DNA from: an uncultured Anaeromyxobacter sp.
GTDB lineage: Bacteria; Myxococcota; Myxococcia; Myxococcales; Anaeromyxobacteraceae
Assembly (NCBI GenBank): GCA_903855945.1
Contig: CAIOAK010000086.1
Coordinates: 1-42,151, forward strand
DNA length: 42,151 nucleotides
Reading direction: 5' to 3'
Shown here: positions 5,482 through 41,781 of the stretch, in pieces
How the letters are laid out: each line of letters starts with the position of its first letter
Position numbering within the stretch: position 1 is the first letter of the stretch
The notes under the pieces: model-generated
Told to the model about the DNA's origin: nothing
The model's database searches: none
The model's input: only the letters and a program-made list of their open reading frames with translations
Translations under genes and position numbers: made by a program

Positions 5482-8252
5482 GCCAGCGCCCCCGCGCACT
5501 TCCCGCAGAGCGTGGGGTGGGCGGGATCCGTGCCACGGTCCTCGGCGAAGACCCAGCAGCGCTCGCACTTCTCGCCCCGGGCCCGCTCGACATTCACTGC
5601 GAGTGTACCATCGGCGAGGGCCACGCCCGAGACGATGAAGAGGGTGGGCAGCTCGTCCGCCGCGTCGCGCAGCAGCGCCAGCGTCTCCCCCTCGGCGGAG
5701 ACGGTCACCCGCGCCTCCAGCCCCGACCCGATGAGCTTGTCGCGCCGGGCCGCCTCGAGCGCCTTCAGCACCTCGGACCGGACCGCGAGCAGCCGCTCGT
5801 ACCGGGCGCGGAGCGAGGCCCCGTCGGCGGGGGCCTCGCGGCGGGGGAAGCCGGCCTCGAAGACCGTGGGGGCCTTCTCGCCGGGCAGGTACTTCCAGGC
5901 CTCGTGGGCCGTGAAGGAGAGGACCGGCGCCAGCATGCGGAGCAGGTCCTGCGCCACCCAGTGGAGCAGCGTCTGGGCGCTGCGGCGGGGCTTCCCGTCC
6001 CTGCGGGCGGTGTAGAGCCGGTCCTTCACCACGTCGAAGTAGACCGACGAGAGCGTGACCGACACGAACTCCATGGTGGCGTGGTAGGCCACGTGGAACT
6101 CGTAGTCGGCGTAGGCCTGGAGAACCGTGTCCTGCCACTCGACCATCTTCGCGCAGGCCCAGCGGTCGAAGGGCTCCATCTCCGCCACCGGCACGGCGTC
6201 CCGGGCCGGGTCGAAATCGGCCAGGTTCCCGAGCGCCCAGCGCACCGTGTTGCGGATCTTCCGGTAGCCCTCGGCGAGGCCGTCCAGGATCTGGCCGGAG
6301 ACCCGCACGTCGTCCCGGTAGTCGGAGGCGGCGACCCAGAGGCGCAGCACGTCGGCGCCGTACTTCTTGATGATCTCCTCGGGCGCCACCACGTTGCCCA
6401 CGCTCTTCGACATGGCCCGGCCCTGGCCGTCGAGGACGAAGCCGTGGGTGAGCACCGCCCTGTAGGGGGCGATGCCCCGGATGGCCATGGAGGTGAGCAG
6501 CGAGGAGTGGAACCAGCCGCGGTGCTGGTCGGACCCCTCCAGGTAGAGCCCCACCGGGAACTCGCTGTTGCGGCCGTGCTCGGCCACCGCCGCCCAGGAG
6601 ACGCCCGAGTCCCACCAGACGTCGAGGATGTCCTGCTCGCGCCGGAAGTCGGTGCCGCCGCAGGCCCCGCACTTTTCACTCTGAGTGAAGTAGGCCGGCT
6701 CGTGCCGGTACCAGGCCTCGATGCCCTCCTTCTCGAACTCGTCGGCCACCCGCCGCATGAGCGCCGGGGAGACGAGCGGCTCGTTGCACTTCTCGCAGTA
6801 GAAGACGGTGATGGGCACGCCCCAGGTGCGCTGGCGCGAGAGGCACCAGTCGGGTCGGTGCTCGATCATGTTGTAGATGCGGTCGCGGCCCCAGCGCGGG
6901 ATCCACTGCACCCGGTCGATCTCGGCGAGGGTGCGGGCGCGCAGCCCGTCGTGCTCCAGCGAGAGGAACCACTGGTCGGTGGCCCGGAAGACCACCGGCC
7001 GGTGGCAGCGCCAGCAGTGCGGGTAGCTGTGGCGGAGCGAGGCCTTCGGGTCGGAGAGCAGGTGCCCCGAGGCGTGCAGGTCGGCCACGATCTCGGCGTT
7101 GGCGGCGAAGATCTCCTTGCCGGCGTACTTGCCCGCCGCCTCGGTGAACCGCCCGGCGCCGTCCACCGGGTTCAGGACCTCGAGGCCGTACTTCATGCCG
7201 ACCTGGTAGTCCTCCTGGCCGTGACCCGGCGCGGTGTGGACGAGGCCGGTGCCGGCCTCCAGCGTGACGTGCTCGCCCAGGATGACCGGGCAGTCCCGGT
7301 CCATGAAGGGGTGGCGGTAGCGAAGCCCCTCGAGCTCGCGCCCCTCCATCGTGGCGAGCACCTTTTCGGGGTGGCGGAGCGACGTGCCGTCCAGGAGCTC
7401 GTCGGGCGCGACGGCGGCCAGGAAGGCGAGGAGCAGGTCCTTCGCCACCACGAGCAGCCGCCCGCCCAGGTCGTAGGCGACGTAGAGGAAGTCGGGGTGG
7501 GCCGAGACCGCCAGGTTGGCGGGCAAGGTCCAGGGGGTGGTGGTCCAGACGACCAGGCTCGCCTTGCGCCCGGCCAGCGCCGGCGCGGGCAGGTCGCCCA
7601 GAAGCTCGAAGGCCACGTGGATGGAGGGCGAGGTGTGCTCCTCGTACTCCACCTCCGCCTCGGCGAGCGCGGTGCGATCGGTGGTGCACCAGTAGACCGG
7701 CTTCTTGCCCCGGACGAGGTAGCCCTTCTCGGCCACCCGGGCGAGCGCCCGGACCGTGTCGGCCTCGTACCCCTTCGCCATGGTGGCGTAGGGGGTGTCC
7801 CAGCGCCCGAAGATGCCGAGCCGCTTGAACTCCTCCCGCTGCTTGTCGATCCACTTGCCGGCGTAGGTGCGGGCGGCCCCGATCACCGCCACGCGGTCCA
7901 TGTCCCGCTTCTTCGAGCCGAGCTCCTCGTCCACCTTCCGCTCGATGGGCAGTCCGTGGCAGTCCCAGCCGGGCTGGTAGTCGGAGACCTGGCCCGACAT
8001 GTTGCGGTACTTGACGATGAGATCCTTCAGGATCTTGTTGAGCGCGTGGCCGATGTGGATGTGACCGTTCGCGTAGGGCGGCCCGTCGTGGAGGACGAAG
8101 CGCTTGCCCCCCCTGGCCACGTTGGCGGCCACCAGGTTCTCGAAGATCCGGCCTGCCTCCCACTCCTTCAGGATCTCCGGCTCCCGCTGCGGCAGGTTGC
8201 CCTTCATCGGGAAGTCGGTCTTCGGCAGGTTGACGGTGTCCTTGTAGTCCAC
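5478..8252 (-). CDS. ileS: Isoleucyl-tRNA synthetase
   Basis: A class I aminoacyl-tRNA synthetase of 924 residues that charges tRNA-Ile and edits misactivated valine. HIGH lies at residues 66-69 (GHIHIGH), and KMSKS appears as AMSKS near residue 612. The editing domain lies between, and the C-terminus has a zinc knuckle (CERCW with CGKC). I chose GTG 8252 because DYKDTVNLPKTDFPMKGNLP is the canonical IleS N-terminus; the reading frame stays open a further 285 bases upstream without conserved sequence. A consensus-like promoter precedes it. The gene contains two copies of the 15-bp palindrome discussed in the findings (6675-6689, 5593-5607), each using otherwise rare codons (ACT, AGT, GAA; GGT, ACA, GCA, AAT). 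Confidence 0.98.
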   Translation of the reverse strand: MDYKDTVNLPKTDFPMKGNLPQREPEILKEWEAGRIFENLVAANVARGGKRFVLHDGPPYANGHIHIGHALNKILKDLIVKYRNMSGQVSDYQPGWDCHGLPIERKVDEELGSKKRDMDRVAVIGAARTYAGKWIDKQREEFKRLGIFGRWDTPYATMAKGYEADTVRALARVAEKGYLVRGKKPVYWCTTDRTALAEAEVEYEEHTSPSIHVAFELLGDLPAPALAGRKASLVVWTTTPWTLPANLAVSAHPDFLYVAYDLGGRLLVVAKDLLLAFLAAVAPDELLDGTSLRHPEKVLATMEGRELEGLRYRHPFMDRDCPVILGEHVTLEAGTGLVHTAPGHGQEDYQVGMKYGLEVLNPVDGAGRFTEAAGKYAGKEIFAANAEIVADLHASGHLLSDPKASLRHSYPHCWRCHRPVVFRATDQWFLSLEHDGLRARTLAEIDRVQWIPRWGRDRIYNMIEHRPDWCLSRQRTWGVPITVFYCEKCNEPLVSPALMRRVADEFEKEGIEAWYRHEPAYFTQSEKCGACGGTDFRREQDILDVWWDSGVSWAAVAEHGRNSEFPVGLYLEGSDQHRGWFHSSLLTSMAIRGIAPYRAVLTHGFVLDGQGRAMSKSVGNVVAPEEIIKKYGADVLRLWVAASDYRDDVRVSGQILDGLAEGYRKIRNTVRWALGNLADFDPARDAVPVAEMEPFDRWACAKMVEWQDTVLQAYADYEFHVAYHATMEFVSVTLSSVYFDVVKDRLYTARRDGKPRRSAQTLLHWVAQDLLRMLAPVLSFTAHEAWKYLPGEKAPTVFEAGFPRREAPADGASLRARYERLLAVRSEVLKALEAARRDKLIGSGLEARVTVSAEGETLALLRDAADELPTLFIVSGVALADGTLAVNVERARGEKCERCWVFAEDRGTDPAHPTLCGKCAGALA
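5593..5607. other. 15-bp palindrome copy A (in ileS, one mismatch)
   Basis: TTCACTGCGAGTGTA: a TTCAC half-site, 5-base spacer and GTGTA half-site. Read in the ileS frame it gives codons GGT ACA CTC GCA GTG AAT, four of them A/T-ending and unlike the surrounding codons. It is one of a dispersed family with consensus TTCAC-N5-GTGAA. Confidence 0.6.
6675..6689. other. 15-bp palindrome copy B (in ileS, exact)
   Basis: TTCACTCTGAGTGAA: both 5-base half-sites are perfect and symmetry extends to 6+6 around a 3-base centre. In ileS it is read as TTC ACT CAG AGT GAA, with three codons seldom used in this gene. Confidence 0.75.
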
Positions 8253-9360: not shown

Positions 9361-11376
9361 ATGAACCCCTGGATCACCGCGTTCCTGCTCCTCGCCGCGG
9401 GCGGCTTCTTCGCCTTCACGATGGTTCGCCGGCTGGCCCCGCTGGGCGCCTTCCGGAAGGACGACCGCTTCGACCGCGCCGGGGAGCGCCTCCGCGGGCT
9501 CCTGCGCTTCGGCCTGGGCCAGTCGCGCCTCCCCACCCGCGGGGAGGTCTGGCCGGGGCTGATGCACATCCTCATCTTCGCGGCCTTCGTCATCCTGGGG
9601 GCCCGCACCGTCACCCTCTTCGGCATGGGCTTCTCCCCCACGTTCCACCTGCCGCTGCTCGGGACGGGGACGGTCATCGGCGACGCCTACGGCTTCGTGA
9701 AGGACGTGATGGTGCTGCTCGCGCTCTTCGCGGCGCTGGCCTTCATCTGGCGCCGGATCGTGACCAAGCCCGATCGCGTCACCCGGAGCTGGGAGGGCGT
9801 GCTCATCCTGGGCTTCATCGCCGGCCTGATGGTCACCGAGATCCTCTTCGAGGGGGCGGAGCGGCTCGCGCTGCGGCAGGCCTGCAGCCTGGGCGCGCCG
9901 GCGGGATCGCTGGGCGCCTGGATGATGGCGGGGATCGACCCGGGCGTGGTCCACGGGATCGGGGTGGCCTCCTTCTGGCTGCACCTCGTCATCGTGCTGG
10001 TGTTCCTGAACTTCCTCCCCTTCGGGAAGCACTTCCACGTCCTCACCGCGCTGCCGGACGTCTGGTTCCAGCGGCTGCCGCCGCGCGGGGCGCTCCGCAA
10101 GCTGGACCTCGAGTCGGAGACCCCCGACTACGGTTCACGCACAGTGAAAGACCTGTCCTGGAAGGAGGCGCTCGACGCCTACTCCTGCACCGAGTGCGGC
10201 CGCTGCCAGACCTTCTGCCCCACCTACGTGACCGGCAAGCCGCTCAGCCACAAGGAGGTGAACCGGACGCTCCGCCGCCACATCCAGGACCGGGCGCCCG
10301 AGCTCGTGGCCATCGCTCGCGCCCCCGACGCCGCGGCGCGCGAGGCCGCCGCCGAGGCCCTCCCCGCGGTGGTGGGGAACGTGCTGCCCGAGGCCACCGT
10401 GTGGGCCTGCACCACCTGCGGCTGGTGCGAGACCGCCTGCCCGGTGCTCATCGAGCAGGTGCCCCGGCTCGTGGACCTGCGGCGTCACCAGGTGCTGGTC
10501 GAGTCGGCCTTCCCCGAAGAGGCGGCCCGCGTCTTCAAGAACATCGAGACCCAGGGCAATCCCTGGGGCATCGGCTCGAACCGGCGCGCCGAGTGGTGCG
10601 ACGACCTCGCCATCCCGCGCGCCGCCGAGGGGGACTTCGAGTGGCTCTTCTTCGTGGGCTGCGCCGGCGCCTTCGACGACCGGCAGAAGAAGGTGTCCCG
10701 CGCCATCGTGAAGATCCTGCGGGCGGCCGGGGTGAAGTTCGCCATCCTGGGCGAGGAGGAGACCTGCAACGGCGAGAGCGCGCGCCGGCTCGGCAACGAG
10801 TACCTGTTCCAGATGCAGGCCTCGGCCAACGTCGAGCTCATGAAGGGCTACGGGGTGAAGAAGGTGATCGCCCAGTGCCCCCACTGCCTCAACACCATCA
10901 AGAACGAGTTCCCCCAGTTCGGCGGGAACTTCGAGGTGGTGCACCACTCCGAGCTCATCGCGCGGCTGGTGGCCGAGGGGAAGCTCAAGCCGGCGGCGGC
11001 GAAGGCCTTCGAGGGGCAGCTCGTCACCTACCACGACCCCTGCTACCTGGCCCGCTGGAACGGGATCGCCGATGCGCCGCGCGCGTCGCTGGCGTCGGTT
11101 CCGGGGCTGCGGGTGCTCGAGATGGAGCGGAACCGCGAGCAGGGATTCTGCTGCGGCGCCGGCGGCGGCCGAATGTGGCTGGAGGAGAAGCTCGGCACCC
11201 GCATCAACCAGAACCGGGTCGAGGAGGCCGCACGTACGCTGGGTGAAAAGGGCGGCGTGGTGGCGGTGGGCTGCCCCTTCTGCCTCACCATGCTGAAGGA
11301 CGGCGTGGCCGAGCTCGGCAAGGAGGAGACCCTGCGGGTGGTGGACGTGGCCGAGATCGTGGCGGACGGTCTGTAG
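9361..11376 (+). CDS. Membrane FeS oxidoreductase: cytochrome b-like domain, two 4Fe-4S, CCG domains
   Basis: A 671-residue fused redox protein. Residues about 1-225 form a membrane domain resembling the nitrate-reductase gamma/HdrE cytochrome b, with several hydrophobic helices and candidate haem histidines. Two 4Fe-4S motifs follow (CTECGRCQTFCP near 277; CTTCGWCETACP near 358), then the CCG-type region of heterodisulfide-reductase HdrD/GlpC proteins (CPHCLNTIKNEF, CCGAGGGRMW, GCPFCLTML). This layout matches the membrane FeS oxidoreductases proposed to pass electrons from ETF to (mena)quinone (the DUF224 group named EMO). That role is inferred, and no etfAB genes are adjacent. The gene carries an exact copy of the 15-bp palindrome at 10134-10148. 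Confidence 0.88.
   Translation: MNPWITAFLLLAAGGFFAFTMVRRLAPLGAFRKDDRFDRAGERLRGLLRFGLGQSRLPTRGEVWPGLMHILIFAAFVILGARTVTLFGMGFSPTFHLPLLGTGTVIGDAYGFVKDVMVLLALFAALAFIWRRIVTKPDRVTRSWEGVLILGFIAGLMVTEILFEGAERLALRQACSLGAPAGSLGAWMMAGIDPGVVHGIGVASFWLHLVIVLVFLNFLPFGKHFHVLTALPDVWFQRLPPRGALRKLDLESETPDYGSRTVKDLSWKEALDAYSCTECGRCQTFCPTYVTGKPLSHKEVNRTLRRHIQDRAPELVAIARAPDAAAREAAAEALPAVVGNVLPEATVWACTTCGWCETACPVLIEQVPRLVDLRRHQVLVESAFPEEAARVFKNIETQGNPWGIGSNRRAEWCDDLAIPRAAEGDFEWLFFVGCAGAFDDRQKKVSRAIVKILRAAGVKFAILGEEETCNGESARRLGNEYLFQMQASANVELMKGYGVKKVIAQCPHCLNTIKNEFPQFGGNFEVVHHSELIARLVAEGKLKPAAAKAFEGQLVTYHDPCYLARWNGIADAPRASLASVPGLRVLEMERNREQGFCCGAGGGRMWLEEKLGTRINQNRVEEAARTLGEKGGVVAVGCPFCLTMLKDGVAELGKEETLRVVDVAEIVADGL
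10134..10148. other. 15-bp palindrome copy C (in the FeS oxidoreductase gene, exact)
   Basis: TTCACGCACAGTGAA, read in frame as GGT TCA CGC ACA GTG AAA. GGT, TCA, ACA and AAA are rare in this gene, whose other codons end almost entirely in G or C. It lies in the linker between the membrane domain and the first FeS motif, where protein constraint is probably low. Confidence 0.8.
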
Positions 11377-11439: not shown

Positions 11440-11787
11440 CTATTCGCGGCCGAGCACGAGATCGATCCCTTCGAGAAGCAGTTCCAGATGCCGCCTCCCC
11501 AGGCGCCCGACGCGCTCGGCGAGCACGGCGCGGTCGAGCGTCACCATCTGCGACACGTTGGCGACCGAGTCGCGGGGGAGGCCGGTGGTGCGGGCGGGGA
11601 GCTCCACGTTCCCGGGCGCCTCGCCCCAGGCGAGGTTGCTCGTGAGCGGGACGCAGACGGCCGTGGCGATCCGGCTCCGGTTGAACGCGTCGCCCTGGAC
11701 CACCACGACCGGCCGGCGGAAGCCGGGTCCGGAGCCGACCGGGTCCGGAAGGTCGGCCCACCAGATCTCCCCCTGGGCGATCACCAC
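11440..11787 (-). CDS. mazF: MazF/PemK-family toxin (mRNA endoribonuclease)
   Basis: A 115-residue protein of the MazF/PemK fold. It has QGEIWWADLPDP at the N-terminus, FRRPVVVVQGDAFN, a VCVPLTSNL strand containing the conserved Thr/Ser, and the C-terminal VSQMVTLDRAVLAERVGRL. This family cleaves single-stranded mRNA and is neutralised by the cognate antitoxin. The GTG start at 11787 overlaps the last 7 bases of the antitoxin gene, the usual toxin-antitoxin coupling. The gene looks intact. Chromosomal core location next to conserved housekeeping genes is unusual but not unique for such modules. Confidence 0.9.
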   Translation of the reverse strand: MVIAQGEIWWADLPDPVGSGPGFRRPVVVVQGDAFNRSRIATAVCVPLTSNLAWGEAPGNVELPARTTGLPRDSVANVSQMVTLDRAVLAERVGRLGRRHLELLLEGIDLVLGRE

Positions 11788-12017
11788 TCCCCCCTGCGGA
11801 GCGCGGCGAACGCGGCGGCCCGGGCGAAGCCATCCTCGCGGGGGTCGAGCCGCTCGGCCACCCTGTCGAGGGCGCGGGTGATCTCCTCCGGATCGTGGCG
11901 CGCGAGGTACTCCTGCACCGCGTCCCGGTAGAGCTCGCTGCGGGACTTGGAGAGGCGCCGGGCCAGTCGATCGGCCTCGGCAAACAGGTCGTCGGGAAGG
12001 GAGATGGCCGTTTTCAT
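11781..12017 (-). CDS. mazE: Ribbon-helix-helix antitoxin (MazE-like)
   Basis: A 78-residue protein with an N-terminal ribbon-helix-helix DNA-binding domain (MKTAISLPDDLFAEADRLA, then SKSRSELYRDAVQEYL) and an acidic/Arg-rich C-terminal tail likely to wrap the toxin. The pair with the downstream MazF, and the 7-base overlap, identify it as the antitoxin and autorepressor. I chose ATG 12017 because the RHH strand begins at residue 3; the frame is open far upstream through the preceding gene. A perfect 5-bp inverted repeat spans the start codon, a probable operator. No Shine-Dalgarno sequence precedes the ATG. Confidence 0.88.
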   Translation of the reverse strand: MKTAISLPDDLFAEADRLARRLSKSRSELYRDAVQEYLARHDPEEITRALDRVAERLDPREDGFARAAAFAALRRGEW

Positions 12018-19889: not shown

Positions 19890-21272
19890 TCAAGAAATGA
19901 CGCTCGAGCGGAGCGTGTCCACGGCCTGACGGACCTCCAGATCGGCGAGGGAGAGCTCGTTCACCCGCTCGATGGCCGAGATGACCGTGGTGTGATCCTT
20001 CTTGTTGAACTTCTCGGCGATGGTCTGGAGCGTCTCCTTGGCGAGCTCGCGGCACAGGAACATCGCCACCTGCCGGGGAAGCGCCACCTTCTGCTCCCGG
20101 GAGGAGCTCGTGAGGCGCGCCACGGTGATGCCGTAATAGGCCGCCACGGCCTCCTGGATGCGCTCGATGGAGGGTCGGTAGCCGGGGGGAGGGATGACGT
20201 CGGAGAGCACGTCGCGCGCGAGGGGCACCGACAGGGGCTCCCCCTTCAGAGAGGCGAAGGCGGCCAGCCGCATGAGCGCGCCCTCGAGCTCCCGGACGTT
20301 CGACTTGATGTGGGTGGCGAGCAGCGAGGCCACCTCGTCGCCGAGGTCGATGCGCTCGGCCTGCGCCTTCTTCTTCAGGATGGCCGCCCGGGTCTCGAAC
20401 TCCGGGGTGTCGATGTGGACCCGCATCCCCCACTCGAATCGGGAGCAGAGCCGCTCCTCCAGCCCCTTCAGCTCCTTGGGGCTGCGATCGGAGGAGAGCA
20501 CGATCTGGACGTTCAGCTCGTAGAGGGTGTTGAAGGTGTGGAAGAACTCCTCGGCGGTCTTGTCCCGGCCGGCGAAGAACTGGACGTCGTCCACGAGCAG
20601 CGCGCCGCATTCCCGGTACTTCCGGCGGAAGTCGGCCATCGTGTTGCGGGAGATGGCGTCCACGAAATCGTTCGTGTAGCGCTCGGAGGTGACGATGGCG
20701 ACGCGCGATCCCGGGGAGTTCTCGTGGATGGCGTTGGCGATGGCGTGGAGGAGGTGGGTCTTCCCGAGGCCGGAGTCGCCGTGCAGGAAGAGCGGGTTCC
20801 AGGCCCTCCCGGGGGTCTTCGCGACCGCCTGGGCCGCGGCCACGGCGAAGCGGTTCGACTCGCCCACCACGAAGGACTCGAAGAGGTAGCGCGGGTTGGT
20901 GCGGGTCTCCCCGGGCACGGCCTGGCCGGACAGGGGGGGCGCGGCCGGATCCAGGGAGAGGGCGGGACGCGGCGGCGGGGAGGTGTCCACCACGAACTGG
21001 GTCCGGAGCGGAGCGCCCACCAGGGGCGGCACGAACTCGTCGAACCAGTCGCGGTAGTTGTCGTCCACGAAATCGCGGTGGAACGGGTCCGGCGCGCCGA
21101 TCTGGAGCCGGTCGCCGTCCAGGCCGAGGACGCGGAGCGGAGCGAACCAGCGTCGGTACAGATCCTCGCGCAGCCGGCCGCGCAGGTGCGCGTCGATGCG
21201 CCCCCAGAGTTCCAGCGCCGGGCCCTCGGCCCCTGCACCGGATGCCGCGTGGGCCACCCCAACGGTTGCCAT
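19890..21272 (-). CDS. dnaA: Chromosomal replication initiator protein DnaA
   Basis: A 460-residue AAA+ initiator. Domain I covers about residues 15-95. A variable Pro/Ala-rich linker follows, then the AAA+ core with Walker A GDSGLGKTHLL (near residue 164), Walker B LLVDDVQFF and the arginine-finger region. Domain IV carries the DnaA signature (ALPRQVAMFLCRELAKETL and KKDHTTVI) that reads the DnaA box. The ATG 21272 has a strong GGAGG nine bases upstream; the frame remains open to 21539 without conserved sequence. The leader contains a near-copy of the 15-bp palindrome at 21333-21347. Confidence 0.97.
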   Translation of the reverse strand: MATVGVAHAASGAGAEGPALELWGRIDAHLRGRLREDLYRRWFAPLRVLGLDGDRLQIGAPDPFHRDFVDDNYRDWFDEFVPPLVGAPLRTQFVVDTSPPPRPALSLDPAAPPLSGQAVPGETRTNPRYLFESFVVGESNRFAVAAAQAVAKTPGRAWNPLFLHGDSGLGKTHLLHAIANAIHENSPGSRVAIVTSERYTNDFVDAISRNTMADFRRKYRECGALLVDDVQFFAGRDKTAEEFFHTFNTLYELNVQIVLSSDRSPKELKGLEERLCSRFEWGMRVHIDTPEFETRAAILKKKAQAERIDLGDEVASLLATHIKSNVRELEGALMRLAAFASLKGEPLSVPLARDVLSDVIPPPGYRPSIERIQEAVAAYYGITVARLTSSSREQKVALPRQVAMFLCRELAKETLQTIAEKFNKKDHTTVISAIERVNELSLADLEVRQAVDTLRSSVIS

Positions 21273-21537
21273 CCCCTGATACCTCCACGACGAAAGACGA
21301 CGGCAGGGCCCCCGCGACGCGCGGAAGCGATGTTCACTGAGAGTGTTGAATGCCTGGACTGCGTGGACCGCGTGACGAACGTGCGACGAGACACTCTCTA
21401 GCGAAGGAGGAGGCCAGGGATCAAGTGCTCGTTCTCGTCTCGTGGCAGGCGCCGGAATTTCCTCGGGGAAGCCGGGAGGCCAGATCGGAGCCCAGCCTCC
21501 TTGACACGGCGCGCCCGATCGGGGAGGTTCCCGCGCC
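21273..21537. other. Divergent dnaA-rpmH intergenic region
   Basis: 265 bases separate the diverging dnaA and rpmH starts. The region contains a palindrome copy (21333-21347), an 8-bp inverted repeat GAGAGTGT (21339-21346)/ACACTCTC (21391-21398), and TTGACA at 21501-21506, a perfect -35 hexamer upstream of rpmH without a good -10 at 17 bases. No consensus DnaA box was found. It is a second candidate for origin-associated regulation because replication-linked gene direction switches here. Confidence 0.5.
21333..21347. other. 15-bp palindrome copy D (dnaA leader, two mismatches)
   Basis: TTCACTGAGAGTGTT, read on the minus strand as AACACTCTCAGTGAA, lies about 60 bases upstream of the dnaA ATG. 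One half-site is perfect, including the CAGTGAA form common to most copies; the other has two changed bases. It is one of only two copies outside a coding region. Confidence 0.5.
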
Positions 21538-22051: not shown

Positions 22052-22275
22052 CCGGAACGAGCCCGGCCGCCCTTCCGCTCGTCGGGATCGTGCGGGTCTA
22101 CCAGCGGCTCGTCTCGCCGCTGCTCCCGCCGTCCTGCCGCTTCTACCCGTCCTGCTCGGCCTACGCCGTGACCGCCCTGCAGCGGCATGGCGCGCTCGCG
22201 GGGAGCTGGCTCGCCGCCCGGCGGCTGGCCCGCTGCCATCCGTTCCACCCGGGCGGGCTCGACCCCGTTCCCTAG
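22048..22275 (+). CDS. yidD: Membrane protein insertion efficiency factor YidD
   Basis: A 75-residue protein of the YidD family. It has a short amphipathic N-terminus ([16 protein letters not shown]), the conserved cysteine motif [11 protein letters not shown] (about 32-42) and the C-terminal [14 protein letters not shown]. It assists YidC-dependent membrane protein insertion. It starts with TTG overlapping the rnpA stop. No transmembrane helix is predicted; association with the inner face of the membrane is the family norm. Confidence 0.95.
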
Positions 22276-22306
22276 GGATTCCATCGTTGAAGAAGGCAGG
22301 TACGAC

Positions 22307-23950
22307 GTGAACGACAGCAAGCGCATCATGTTCGCCGCCCTGGGATCGGTCGTGATCCTGTTCGCGTGGAACGAGTTCTTCATGCCCAAGAAGGGCAAGG
22401 ACGCGGCGGCCGCGAAGGCTGCGGTGACGGCCCCATCGGGTCCGGCCACGGCGGCTTCGGCCCCCGCGGCGGCGCAGGCCCCCGCCCCGGTCGCGCCGGT
22501 CCTCCCCGCCACGCCCGAGGAGACGGTGGTCCTCGAGACCCCCGAGTTCCGGGCCACCTTCACGAGCTGGGGCGGCGCGCTCAAGAGCCTGCGGCTGAAG
22601 GAGGAGACCTACCGGAGGCGCGGGAAGGGCGAGGTGCCCGACGAGCCCATCGACCTCGTGAACGTCCGCGAGGGCGAGCCCTGGCCGATGGCGACCCTGC
22701 CCTCCGCCGAGCTGGGCGGCGGTTCCGACGCGGGCACCGATCCGCTGGTCCGCGCCCCCATGCGCATCACGGCCCGGGACGGGAAGAGCGTCACCTTCGA
22801 GGGGCGCCTCGGGGCGCTCGACGTCCGCAAGACCTTCGCGGTCGGGTCGCGTCCCTACCAGATCGACGTGGAGCTCCAGGCGAGCGGCGGGGAGCGCCCG
22901 GGAACGCTCGCCATCCTCTACCCGGCCTTCCAGGCGCCCGACGCGCCGGCGGCGGGGTTCTTCTCGGGCGGCGAGGTCTTCGAGTCGGTGATCCCGGTCT
23001 GCCGGGCCGGCGACAAGACCGAGCGGTACGACGGAAAGGCACCGCTCCAGACCCTCCCCGGCGCGCCCGCCTGGATCGGCCTCGACCAGCACTACTTCGT
23101 CTCGGCGCTCATGCCCCAGTCCACCGACGGGAGCTGCTTCTTCGCGAAGCTCCCCGCGGCCGGGGAGAGCCTCTCCGGCCTGCGCATCCCGGTGGATCGC
23201 GCGGTGAAGGCCACCTACCAGATCTACGCGGGCCCGAAGCAGGTGGAGCTGCTCCGCGCCTACGGGCGGGGGCTCGACACGGCCATCGACTACGGCCCGG
23301 TCTCCAACTACTTCGCCTTCTTCGCCCGCATCCTGCTCTGGGTGATGAACAAGTTCTACTCCTTCGCCCACAACTGGGGCGCGGCCATCGTGCTGCTTAC
23401 ACTGCTGGTGAAGGCCCTCCTTTATCCACTGACAGTGAAGTCGATGATGTCGATGCAGGAGATGAAGAAGCTCCAGCCCAAGGTGGACGCCCTGAAGGCG
23501 AAGTACGGCGACGACAAGGAGAAGATGAACCAGGAGGTGATGCGCCTCTACCAGGAGCACAAGGTGAACCCGCTGGGCGGGTGCCTGCCCCTGCTCCTGC
23601 AGATGCCGGTCTGGCTGGCCCTCTACGCCACCCTGCAGACCTCGGTGGAGCTCTACCGGCAGCCCTTCCTGTGGGTGAAGGACCTGACGGCCTACGACCC
23701 CTTCTACATCCTGCCGCTCGCCATGGGCGTCTCCAGCTTCATCATGCAGAAGATCTCGCCGCAGCCGGCCGACAACGCCCAGGCCAAGATGCTGCTCTAC
23801 TTCATGCCGATCTTCTTCACCTTCATCATGCTGAAGCTTCCGGCCGGCCTGACCCTCTACATCTTCGTGAACAACCTCCTCTCCATCGCGCAGCAGCAGT
23901 GGATCATCCGCAAGGATCGAAAGGCCACCGCGGCCGCGGCCGCGTCCTGA
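22307..23950 (+). CDS. yidC: Membrane protein insertase YidC
   Basis: A 547-residue insertase of the Gram-negative type. It has an N-terminal helix (IMFAALGSVVILFAW), an Ala/Pro linker, a large periplasmic beta domain (about 75-340) and the five-helix Oxa1/YidC core at the C-terminus. In the first core helix (IVLLTLLVKALLYPLTVKS) the groove residue that is Arg in E. coli YidC is Lys. The GTG start at 22307 has AAGGCAGG just upstream and puts the first helix at the N-terminus. Its products include the Fo subunits encoded downstream. Two copies of the 15-bp palindrome lie 27 bases apart exactly in the conserved first core helix, with unusual codons (CTT, ACA, TAT, CCA). Confidence 0.97.
   Translation: MNDSKRIMFAALGSVVILFAWNEFFMPKKGKDAAAAKAAVTAPSGPATAASAPAAAQAPAPVAPVLPATPEETVVLETPEFRATFTSWGGALKSLRLKEETYRRRGKGEVPDEPIDLVNVREGEPWPMATLPSAELGGGSDAGTDPLVRAPMRITARDGKSVTFEGRLGALDVRKTFAVGSRPYQIDVELQASGGERPGTLAILYPAFQAPDAPAAGFFSGGEVFESVIPVCRAGDKTERYDGKAPLQTLPGAPAWIGLDQHYFVSALMPQSTDGSCFFAKLPAAGESLSGLRIPVDRAVKATYQIYAGPKQVELLRAYGRGLDTAIDYGPVSNYFAFFARILLWVMNKFYSFAHNWGAAIVLLTLLVKALLYPLTVKSMMSMQEMKKLQPKVDALKAKYGDDKEKMNQEVMRLYQEHKVNPLGGCLPLLLQMPVWLALYATLQTSVELYRQPFLWVKDLTAYDPFYILPLAMGVSSFIMQKISPQPADNAQAKMLLYFMPIFFTFIMLKLPAGLTLYIFVNNLLSIAQQQWIIRKDRKATAAAAAS
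23398..23412. other. 15-bp palindrome copy E (in yidC, one mismatch)
   Basis: TACACTGCTGGTGAA has one altered base in the left half-site. It is read as CTT ACA CTG CTG GTG AAG. It forms a pair with the copy at 23425-23439, 27 bases start to start. Confidence 0.6.
23425..23439. other. 15-bp palindrome copy F (in yidC, one mismatch)
   Basis: TCCACTGACAGTGAA, read as TAT CCA CTG ACA GTG AAG. Four codons in a row around it (CTT TAT CCA, then ACA) are atypical for this gene although the encoded residues (LYPLTVK) are conserved in the family. Confidence 0.65.
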
Positions 23951-25408: not shown

Positions 25409-25432
25409 CCGGTGTTCCACGTGGAACACCGG
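25409..25432. promoter_or_regulatory. parS: parS site 1 (centromere-like)
   Basis: The 16-bp core TGTTCCACGTGGAACA (25413-25428) is a perfect palindrome, and symmetry extends to 24 bp (25409-25432). It differs from the Bacillus-type parS only by C/G in place of T/A at the fifth pair. ParB binds such sites and spreads with CTP to build the segregation complex. Confidence 0.95.
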
Positions 25433-25452: not shown

Positions 25453-25468
25453 TGTTCCACGTGGAACG
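25453..25468. promoter_or_regulatory. parS: parS site 2
   Basis: TGTTCCACGTGGAACG, with a perfect 14-bp palindrome at 25454-25467 and a single asymmetric flanking pair. It lies 40 bases from site 1, start to start. Both sites lie in the rsmG-parA gap, so ParB bound here could also repress parAB. Confidence 0.92.
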
Positions 25469-28606: not shown

Positions 28607-32524
<3,918 letters not shown>

Positions 32525-40671: not shown

Positions 40672-41781
40672 ATGGGCCTTGCCATCGGAATCGTCGGGCT
40701 GCCGAACGTCGGCAAGTCCACCCTCTTCAACGCGCTGCTCGGCCAGGCGCAGGCCCAGGCCGCCAACTACCCCTTCTGCACCATCGACCCGAACGTGGGC
40801 ATGGTGCTGGTCCCCGACGAGCGGCTGCTCCGGCTCGCCAACCTCTTCCATCCGAAGAAGACCACCCCGACCACGCTCGAGTTCGTGGACATCGCCGGGC
40901 TCGTGGCCGGGGCGTCGAAGGGGGAGGGGCTCGGGAACCAGTTCCTCTCCCACATCCGGCAGGTGGACGCGGTGGCCCACGTGCTCCGCTGCTTCGCCGA
41001 CCCCGACGTGGTCCACGTGGGGGGCAAGGTGGACCCGCGCGGCGACCGGGACGTGGTCGAGACCGAGCTCATGCTGAAGGACCTGGAGCAGATCGAGAAG
41101 CGCCGGGAGAAGAAGCTCAAGGACGCGAAGGCCCCGGGGAAGCCCGGGGAGCTCGCAAAGGCGGAGCTGGTGGCGCTGGACCAGGTGACGGAGGGGCTGG
41201 ACCGGGGCGTGCCCGTGCGCCGTCAGGGGCTCGGTCCCGAGCAGCTCGCCGCCGTGGCCGACCTCTTCCTGCTCACCGGGAAGCCGGTGCTCTACATCGC
41301 CAACGTGGACGAGGCGCAGCTGGCCCGGGGGGACGACCCGCGGATCGCGGAGGTGCGGGCGCTGGCCGAGGAGGAGGGGGCGCGCTGGGTGGCCATCAGC
41401 GGGAAGGTGGAGGCGGAGCTGTCCGAGCTGCCGGAGGCGGACCGGGCCGAGTTCCTCCACGGTCTTGGGCTCGAGGAGCCCGGCCTGCACCGGCTCGTCC
41501 GTGCCGGGTACGAGCTGCTGGAGCTCTCGACCTTCTTCACTGTCGGTGAAGATGAATGCAGGGCCTGGACCATCCACAAGGGGATGACCGCGCCGCAGGC
41601 CGCCGGGACGATCCACACCGACTTCGAGCGGGGCTTCATCAAGGCCGACGTGCAGCGATGGGAGGAGCTCGTCCGGCTGGGGAGCGAGTCCGCGGTGCGG
41701 GAGAAGGGGCTGCTCCGCATCGAGGGCAAGGAGTACCGGGTGCAGGACGGCGACGTGGTGCACTTTCGATTCAACGTCTGA
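40672..41781 (+). CDS. ychF: Redox-regulated ATPase YchF (OLA1 family)
   Basis: A 369-residue Obg-related P-loop protein that prefers ATP. P-loop GLPNVGKST is at 9-17. G3 is DIAGLVAGASKGEGLGNQFL (about 68), and the G4 position reads NVDE instead of NKxD, the family hallmark that changes GTP to ATP specificity. A coiled coil (about 125-165) and a C-terminal TGS domain (about 285-369: FFTVGEDECRAWTIHKGMTAPQAAG) follow. ATG 40672 is chosen because the protein then begins MGLAIGIVGLPNVG; the open frame upstream runs through the terminator. An exact palindrome copy (41536-41550) lies at the TGS-domain junction. Confidence 0.97.
   Translation: MGLAIGIVGLPNVGKSTLFNALLGQAQAQAANYPFCTIDPNVGMVLVPDERLLRLANLFHPKKTTPTTLEFVDIAGLVAGASKGEGLGNQFLSHIRQVDAVAHVLRCFADPDVVHVGGKVDPRGDRDVVETELMLKDLEQIEKRREKKLKDAKAPGKPGELAKAELVALDQVTEGLDRGVPVRRQGLGPEQLAAVADLFLLTGKPVLYIANVDEAQLARGDDPRIAEVRALAEEEGARWVAISGKVEAELSELPEADRAEFLHGLGLEEPGLHRLVRAGYELLELSTFFTVGEDECRAWTIHKGMTAPQAAGTIHTDFERGFIKADVQRWEELVRLGSESAVREKGLLRIEGKEYRVQDGDVVHFRFNV
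41536..41550. other. 15-bp palindrome copy I (in ychF, exact)
   Basis: TTCACTGTCGGTGAA, read as TTC ACT GTC GGT GAA and followed by GAT GAA TGC. The run ACT, GGT, GAA, GAT, GAA is a local patch of A/T-ending codons in a gene otherwise ending almost entirely in G or C, although the encoded FFTVGEDE is a family motif. Confidence 0.8.

Follow-up and report, generated by a model that had tools for sequence, protein, structure and literature searches.

A lineage-restricted palindrome scattered through the genes of an Anaeromyxobacter genome, most simply explained as the site of a chromosome organiser

The two tandem palindromes in yidC of an uncultured Anaeromyxobacter sp. are real and are part of a set of ~250 near-identical 15-base copies, which are scattered in genes and are probably landing sites of a DNA-binding protein. 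The finding is larger than the initial annotation, which dealt with the yidC pair, had assumed: it concerns a lineage-specific, genome-wide, intragenic palindrome under selection at the level of the DNA, for which sites of a chromosome organiser are the simplest explanation. The more specific reading that we favor, in which the yidC pair belongs to a chromosome-wide, operator-like family that is bound by a dimeric or tetrameric chromosome organiser and was multiplied in one lineage, is one that we hold with about even confidence.

In the window, i.e., the whole stretch of 42,151 nucleotides that was analysed, yidC is located at 22187..23950 on the plus strand (Pfam 60KD_IMP and YidC_periplas); its start codon is uncertain, and translation may instead begin internally at 22307. 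The palindromes, to which no strand is assigned, lie at 23398..23412 (TACACTGCTGGTGAA) and 23425..23439 (TCCACTGACAGTGAA), close to where the conserved YidC insertase domain begins (Pfam match from residue 397), with a distance of 27 bases (~2.6 helical turns) from start to start. Because they have two mismatches and one mismatch, respectively, to the consensus TTCACT-N3-AGTGAA, both are imperfect. The initial annotation had pointed to unusual codons in this stretch, and this was borne out: the 14-codon window starting at 23398 ranked second lowest in codon commonness among 533 yidC windows, and CTT, ACA, TAT, CCA, and ACA each represent 1-4% of the codons for their own amino acid. It had also placed the pair close to dnaA, the start codon of which is indeed ~2.1 kb away; this proximity is not the main point because the palindrome is spread genome-wide, yet it is the near-origin sites that congeners have retained (see below). 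For the suggestion that the pair is a high-occupancy site, we found nothing in support.

The 15-bp consensus is bordered by ~3-4 bp of A/T-rich sequence on either side. In the genome to which the window belongs (G000; 4.07 Mb in 213 contigs), we counted 64 exact copies of TTCACT-N3-AGTGAA and none of the reversed control, and 175 places within two mismatches of TTCACTGNCAGTGAA compared with 3 for the reversed pattern. A de novo search of all 4- to 6-base half-sites with spacers of 0-12 bases in 442 kb of this genome (20 stretches, partly chosen for known sites, plus the window) returned TTCACT-N3-AGTGAA as the strongest spaced palindrome; it was first among the 6-base half-sites (16 found, 0.004 expected), as was TCACT-N3-AGTGA among the 5-base half-sites (20 found, 0.01 expected). 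In 196 kb that had not been picked for sites, there were 12 copies with at most one mismatch, compared with a mean of 0.1 for ten rearranged palindromes. Scaled to the genome, this corresponds to ~249 such copies (95% interval 129-434), or approximately one per 16 kb. Such an over-represented, sequence-specific palindrome spread across the chromosome is one feature of dispersed organiser sites of the matS/SlmA type. These would also be expected to be uneven along the axis from origin to terminus; counts per 20 kb look even, but the 213 contigs are unordered, and when one 20-kb stretch was compared with complete genomes of other genera, in which the gene order differs, its matches were scattered. 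A literature search for the motif letters and related words, largely without subscription journals, gave no match.

Among 80 copies with at most one mismatch, a selection rule by which part of the conservation is built in, CAC...GTG hardly varied, the outer TT varied slightly more, and the inner T was present in 88%, while the three central bases were nearly free and A/T was raised 1-3 bases outside the palindrome. At the same 80 sites, pairing between the flanks was near chance and no stem extended past the 15 bp, which argues that the copies are neither hairpins nor terminators. The half-sites have the same spacing as those in the operators of BldD and lambda repressor (TNAC-N5-GTNA, TCAC-N5-GTGA). 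We suggest that these palindromes would be bound by a sequence-specific protein in dimeric or tetrameric form, with one subunit per CAC/GTG arm.

To locate the copies relative to genes, we placed 50 of the 64 exact copies (17 plus 33). Of these, 46 were inside genes and 4 between genes. Based on our own gene calls, intergenic DNA makes up 36,181 of 638,469 bp, i.e., 94% of the sequence is coding; the share of intragenic copies is, therefore, that expected by chance, and there is no enrichment at promoters. A dispersed organiser would likewise be expected to have sites with no preference for promoters. Exact in-gene copies use frames 0 and 2 and never frame 1, in which the palindrome contains an in-frame TGA stop. 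The codons that spell the palindrome are rare: the mean log10 codon frequency was -1.42 at exact sites and -1.15 at sites with one mismatch, compared with -0.285 (sd 0.05) for the genes that contain them.

We compared these sites with the orthologous genes of the congener G001. At sites with one mismatch, 32 of 70 codons (46%) differed synonymously compared with 157 of 779 (20%) in the flanks (p = 7e-6), a difference that is inflated because the sites were chosen by their motif in G000; this choice has no bearing on the excess over control palindromes. Nonsynonymous differences were not raised (5/70, 7%, compared with 104/779, 13%). The four exact sites with orthologues in G001 had 54% synonymous differences compared with 25% in the flanks, and their nonsynonymous differences were somewhat raised (7/24, 29%, compared with 39/272, 14%; p = 0.07). 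Three exact sites that we aligned and inspected differed from G001 by substitutions and had no indels at the site. Compared with the congener, the copies have thus arisen mainly through synonymous changes. Together with the rare codons, this indicates that the DNA and not the protein is under selection. Such selection would override codon choice even in conserved housekeeping genes such as yidC, a tRNA synthetase gene, atpG, and ychF.

The excess of the motif is restricted to one lineage. Among 195 Myxococcota genomes searched, 37 contained any exact copy, and only G000, with its 64, had more than 12; G024 of family f2 had 12, and every other genome had at most 5. The congeners G001, G002 (74% complete), and G003 contained 0, 0, and 3 exact copies, respectively, and the remaining 20 genomes of the family contained none. 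A weaker excess was detected in G003 (122 kb), with 2 copies within one mismatch (control 0.0) and 11 within two (control 0.7). G001 (483 kb) had no copy within one mismatch and 18 within two, or 19 counting an overlapping locus (control 4.5). In 320 kb from other family genomes, mostly near yidC, we found 2 copies within one mismatch compared with 0.1 in controls, one in yidC of G008 and one at L061:10624 in G005, a genome of another genus, ~1.6 kb beyond yidC and apparently intergenic. G024, from another family, is possibly a second, weaker case. Based on simple gene calls, its copies (L127-L138) are mostly in genes, i.e., 10 or 9 of the 12, depending on the treatment of a copy at a gene start.

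The exact matches in Myxococcaceae were not counted as the same motif, because all 18 that were read are intergenic by our own gene calls and several are part of extended, terminator-like inverted repeats. We note that a hairpin-like repeat is present just after a HEAT-repeat gene in three Myxococcaceae genomes (L201:4001, L205:4001, and L211:4001); its TTCACT/AGTGAA arms are conserved and its loop varies, and in G116 it lies upstream of dnaA.

Matches to the pattern of the initial annotation gave 11 entries at 7 places in the window, compared with 0.19 expected from shuffled sequences. Besides the yidC pair, copies of the palindrome are located in a gene for a class I (Ile-type) tRNA synthetase (5593..5607, one mismatch, and 6675..6689, exact), in an iron-sulfur oxidoreductase gene (10134..10148, one mismatch; three mismatches in G003), in atpG (30404..30418, one mismatch, as in G001), in a ychF-like GTPase gene (41536..41550, one mismatch), and between dnaA and rpmH (21333..21347, TTCACTGAGAGTGTT, two mismatches). 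The last of these is 76 bp upstream of the called start of dnaA (19890..21257, minus strand; Pfam), and in G001 and G003, its arms are kept while the centre varies. The window also contains two parS-like sites before parA, TGTTCCACGTGGAACA and a one-base variant (25413-25428 and 25453-25468), and, on the minus strand, a gene for a MazF/PemK-like toxin with a ribbon-helix-helix antitoxin (11440-12017). TTCCAC-GTGGAA is also enriched in other sampled loci of the family, mostly near yidC.

A comparison of the 15-codon stretch in 30 yidC genes supports a constraint at the DNA level that is real in the genus (g1) and in part of genus g6 and is not family-wide. The four genomes of the genus have 4-6 A/T-ending codons in the stretch compared with 0.56-0.72 expected, and one or more sites within 1-2 mismatches are present in each. 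Copy 1 is within two mismatches in three of the four (G001 and G003 included) and is lost in G002 (four mismatches); copy 2 is retained in all four, with 1-2 mismatches in G001, G002, and G003. In two of the four g6 genomes, the position of copy 1 is occupied by TACACTCACAGTGAA (one mismatch), and the stretch has three A/T-ending codons. By contrast, no site within three mismatches was found in yidC of the remaining 11 genomes read from the family (genera g2-g5) or of 11 genomes outside the family. The proposal of synonymous conservation in yidC of the family, therefore, stands for the genus and for two of four g6 genomes, while outside g1 and this part of g6, the result is the one that was to speak against it.

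Copies near the origin are those kept between species. Among 33 copies with an orthologue in G001, which have up to two mismatches and, at two mismatches, include chance ones, all four in the window but only 2 of 29 elsewhere are kept within two mismatches in G001 (p = 0.0004). The four are the copy at 21333 upstream of dnaA, both copies in yidC, and the copy at 30404 in atpG. G003 retains three of four copies in the window (not the one at 10134) and one of three elsewhere.

One intergenic copy points to an operator. This exact copy (L008:17457 in G000) lies upstream of a 25-residue, lysine-rich, H1-like ORF that adjoins NFACT-type and SprT-like genes. We observed that this neighbourhood of NFACT-type gene, SprT-like gene, and tiny lysine-rich ORF (L008:14883-17500; G000 C15) is conserved and common to distant families. 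In family f7, in which the corresponding genes were identified by Pfam, copies are present upstream of the same kind of gene in three genomes, which had been fetched for their exact matches, and a fourth has a site with one mismatch, giving 4 of 10 f7 genomes read; five others with the H1-like ORF have no site within three mismatches, and in the incomplete stretch from G043, no H1-like ORF was found. By eye, a sigma-70-like promoter follows directly after the f7 operator. In many Anaeromyxobacteraceae, the H1-like gene is preceded by weaker TCAC-N5-GTGAA-like sequences, typically with three mismatches (partly by eye), and some family members have GTGAC-N4-GTGAA direct repeats there (by eye). 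An Rfam search of the region upstream of the H1-like gene gave no match, and the gap holds the lysine-rich ORF. Three further intergenic exact sites, which we checked as pointers to an autoregulated gene for the binder, were not beside an obvious regulator.

Based on these observations, we propose that the binder would act mainly as a nucleoid or chromosome organiser. An older role of the same protein may have been at the operator before the small lysine-rich H1-like gene and at a few places near the origin; in the G000 species, the sites would have multiplied by selected point changes, most of them synonymous. More tentatively, and with less confidence than in an organiser as such, this could be a spreading site system caught in the act, in which an ancestral binder of the H1 operator and near-origin sites gained ~250 sites in a single species, mainly by synonymous changes and at the cost of using some of the rarest codons, while sister species have 0-3 exact copies. 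The birth of a genome-wide chromosome code of the matS or SlmA type is hard to study, the known systems being old. Because the code is strong in G000 and absent or weak in its congeners, its birth would here be traceable in individual genes, for which synonymous codons serve as the record.

Ordinary transcription factor operators, of which a few intergenic sites would be functional and the intragenic copies either regulatory too or decoys, would fit the recurrence of the H1-like gene site in f7 near a predicted promoter as well as the copy upstream of dnaA that is kept in congeners. We consider this explanation rather unlikely, given that 46 of 50 exact copies are in genes without enrichment at promoters and that rare codons indicate selection on the intragenic copies themselves. 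Biased transformation could also have accumulated a DNA-uptake-type sequence with no function for the chromosome, and dispersed intragenic copies, A/T-rich flanks, and a lineage-specific burst are consistent with that; the dyad symmetry with a free centre, a density of only about one copy per 16 kb, and the presence of a related operator in front of a single specific gene in other genera make it improbable. That the pair in yidC is an origin-related element, such as a DnaA box cluster or an oriC signal, is in agreement with a distance of ~2 kb from dnaA and with the conservation of the near-origin copies. The genome-wide occurrence of the motif, however, already largely refutes this as its sole role, and 26 dnaA upstream regions from outside the family (two of only 5 and 208 bp) contain no copy within two mismatches, so that we regard an origin element as very unlikely. 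Even though both yidC copies are imperfect, an artefact of chance or codon composition is refuted by every control (reversed pattern, rearranged palindromes, shuffles, and congeners) and has a negligible probability.

A known candidate for the binder is CdbA of Myxococcus xanthus, a ribbon-helix-helix nucleoid protein that binds c-di-GMP. CdbA is described as essential, and most of its 569 ChIP peaks are located inside genes (PMC7156744; also PMC10313047), which matches the distribution of the palindrome. G000 encodes an orthologue (L016:9910-10140; PDB 6sbw, E = 3e-27), the first 15 residues of which are the same as in M. xanthus CdbA, and the direct repeats (GTGAC-N4-GTGAA) that precede the H1-like gene in some family members would also be in favor. 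However, the CdbA motif, compared here by its description in PMC7156744, is built as a direct repeat whose units are 4 bp apart, while the palindrome is an inverted repeat with a free centre of three bases. Moreover, Myxococcus relatives without an excess of the motif have an identical N-terminal DNA-contact stretch, and there is no TCAC-N5-GTGA palindrome in the 260 bp upstream of the 27 cdbA-like loci read, nor was a palindrome site found upstream of cdbA in G000. The direct-repeat motif, the unchanged contact stretch, and the siteless upstream regions make CdbA, although present, an unlikely binder of the palindrome. For DdiA, an XRE regulator of M. xanthus, the available text of PMC12288472 gives no motif.

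A chromosome organiser, the explanation that we prefer, has precedents in other bacteria. As described in PMC3116907, the SlmA sites of Escherichia coli (GTGAGTACTCAC) are short palindromes present in tens of copies, mainly in coding sequence, and SlmA is not a regulator of expression; they differ from the G000 palindrome, with its ~250 copies, in sequence and spacing as well as in number. The matS sites of MatP (GTGACRNYGTCAC) are a dispersed palindrome that, according to the same source, was recognized in silico when its protein was yet to be found; they occur only in the Ter region, whereas the G000 palindrome is present on many contigs, and the arms are GTGAC...GTCAC in matS and TTCAC...GTGAA here. 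The sites of CdbA share with the palindrome the order of bacteria (M. xanthus), the occurrence in hundreds, and, based on PMC7156744, the location mostly in genes, but CdbA recognizes its direct repeat with moderate specificity, while the G000 motif is a strict inverted repeat of one lineage. Finally, HIP1 of cyanobacteria (GCGATCGC) is described as a highly iterated palindrome that is over-represented in some genomes (PMC4390886). HIP1 is tied to DNA methyltransferases and lacks a free centre, whereas the G000 motif consists of two arms around a free centre and is slightly degenerate in its outer bases, and this degeneracy argues against a strict enzyme site such as a methyltransferase recognition sequence of the HIP1 type.
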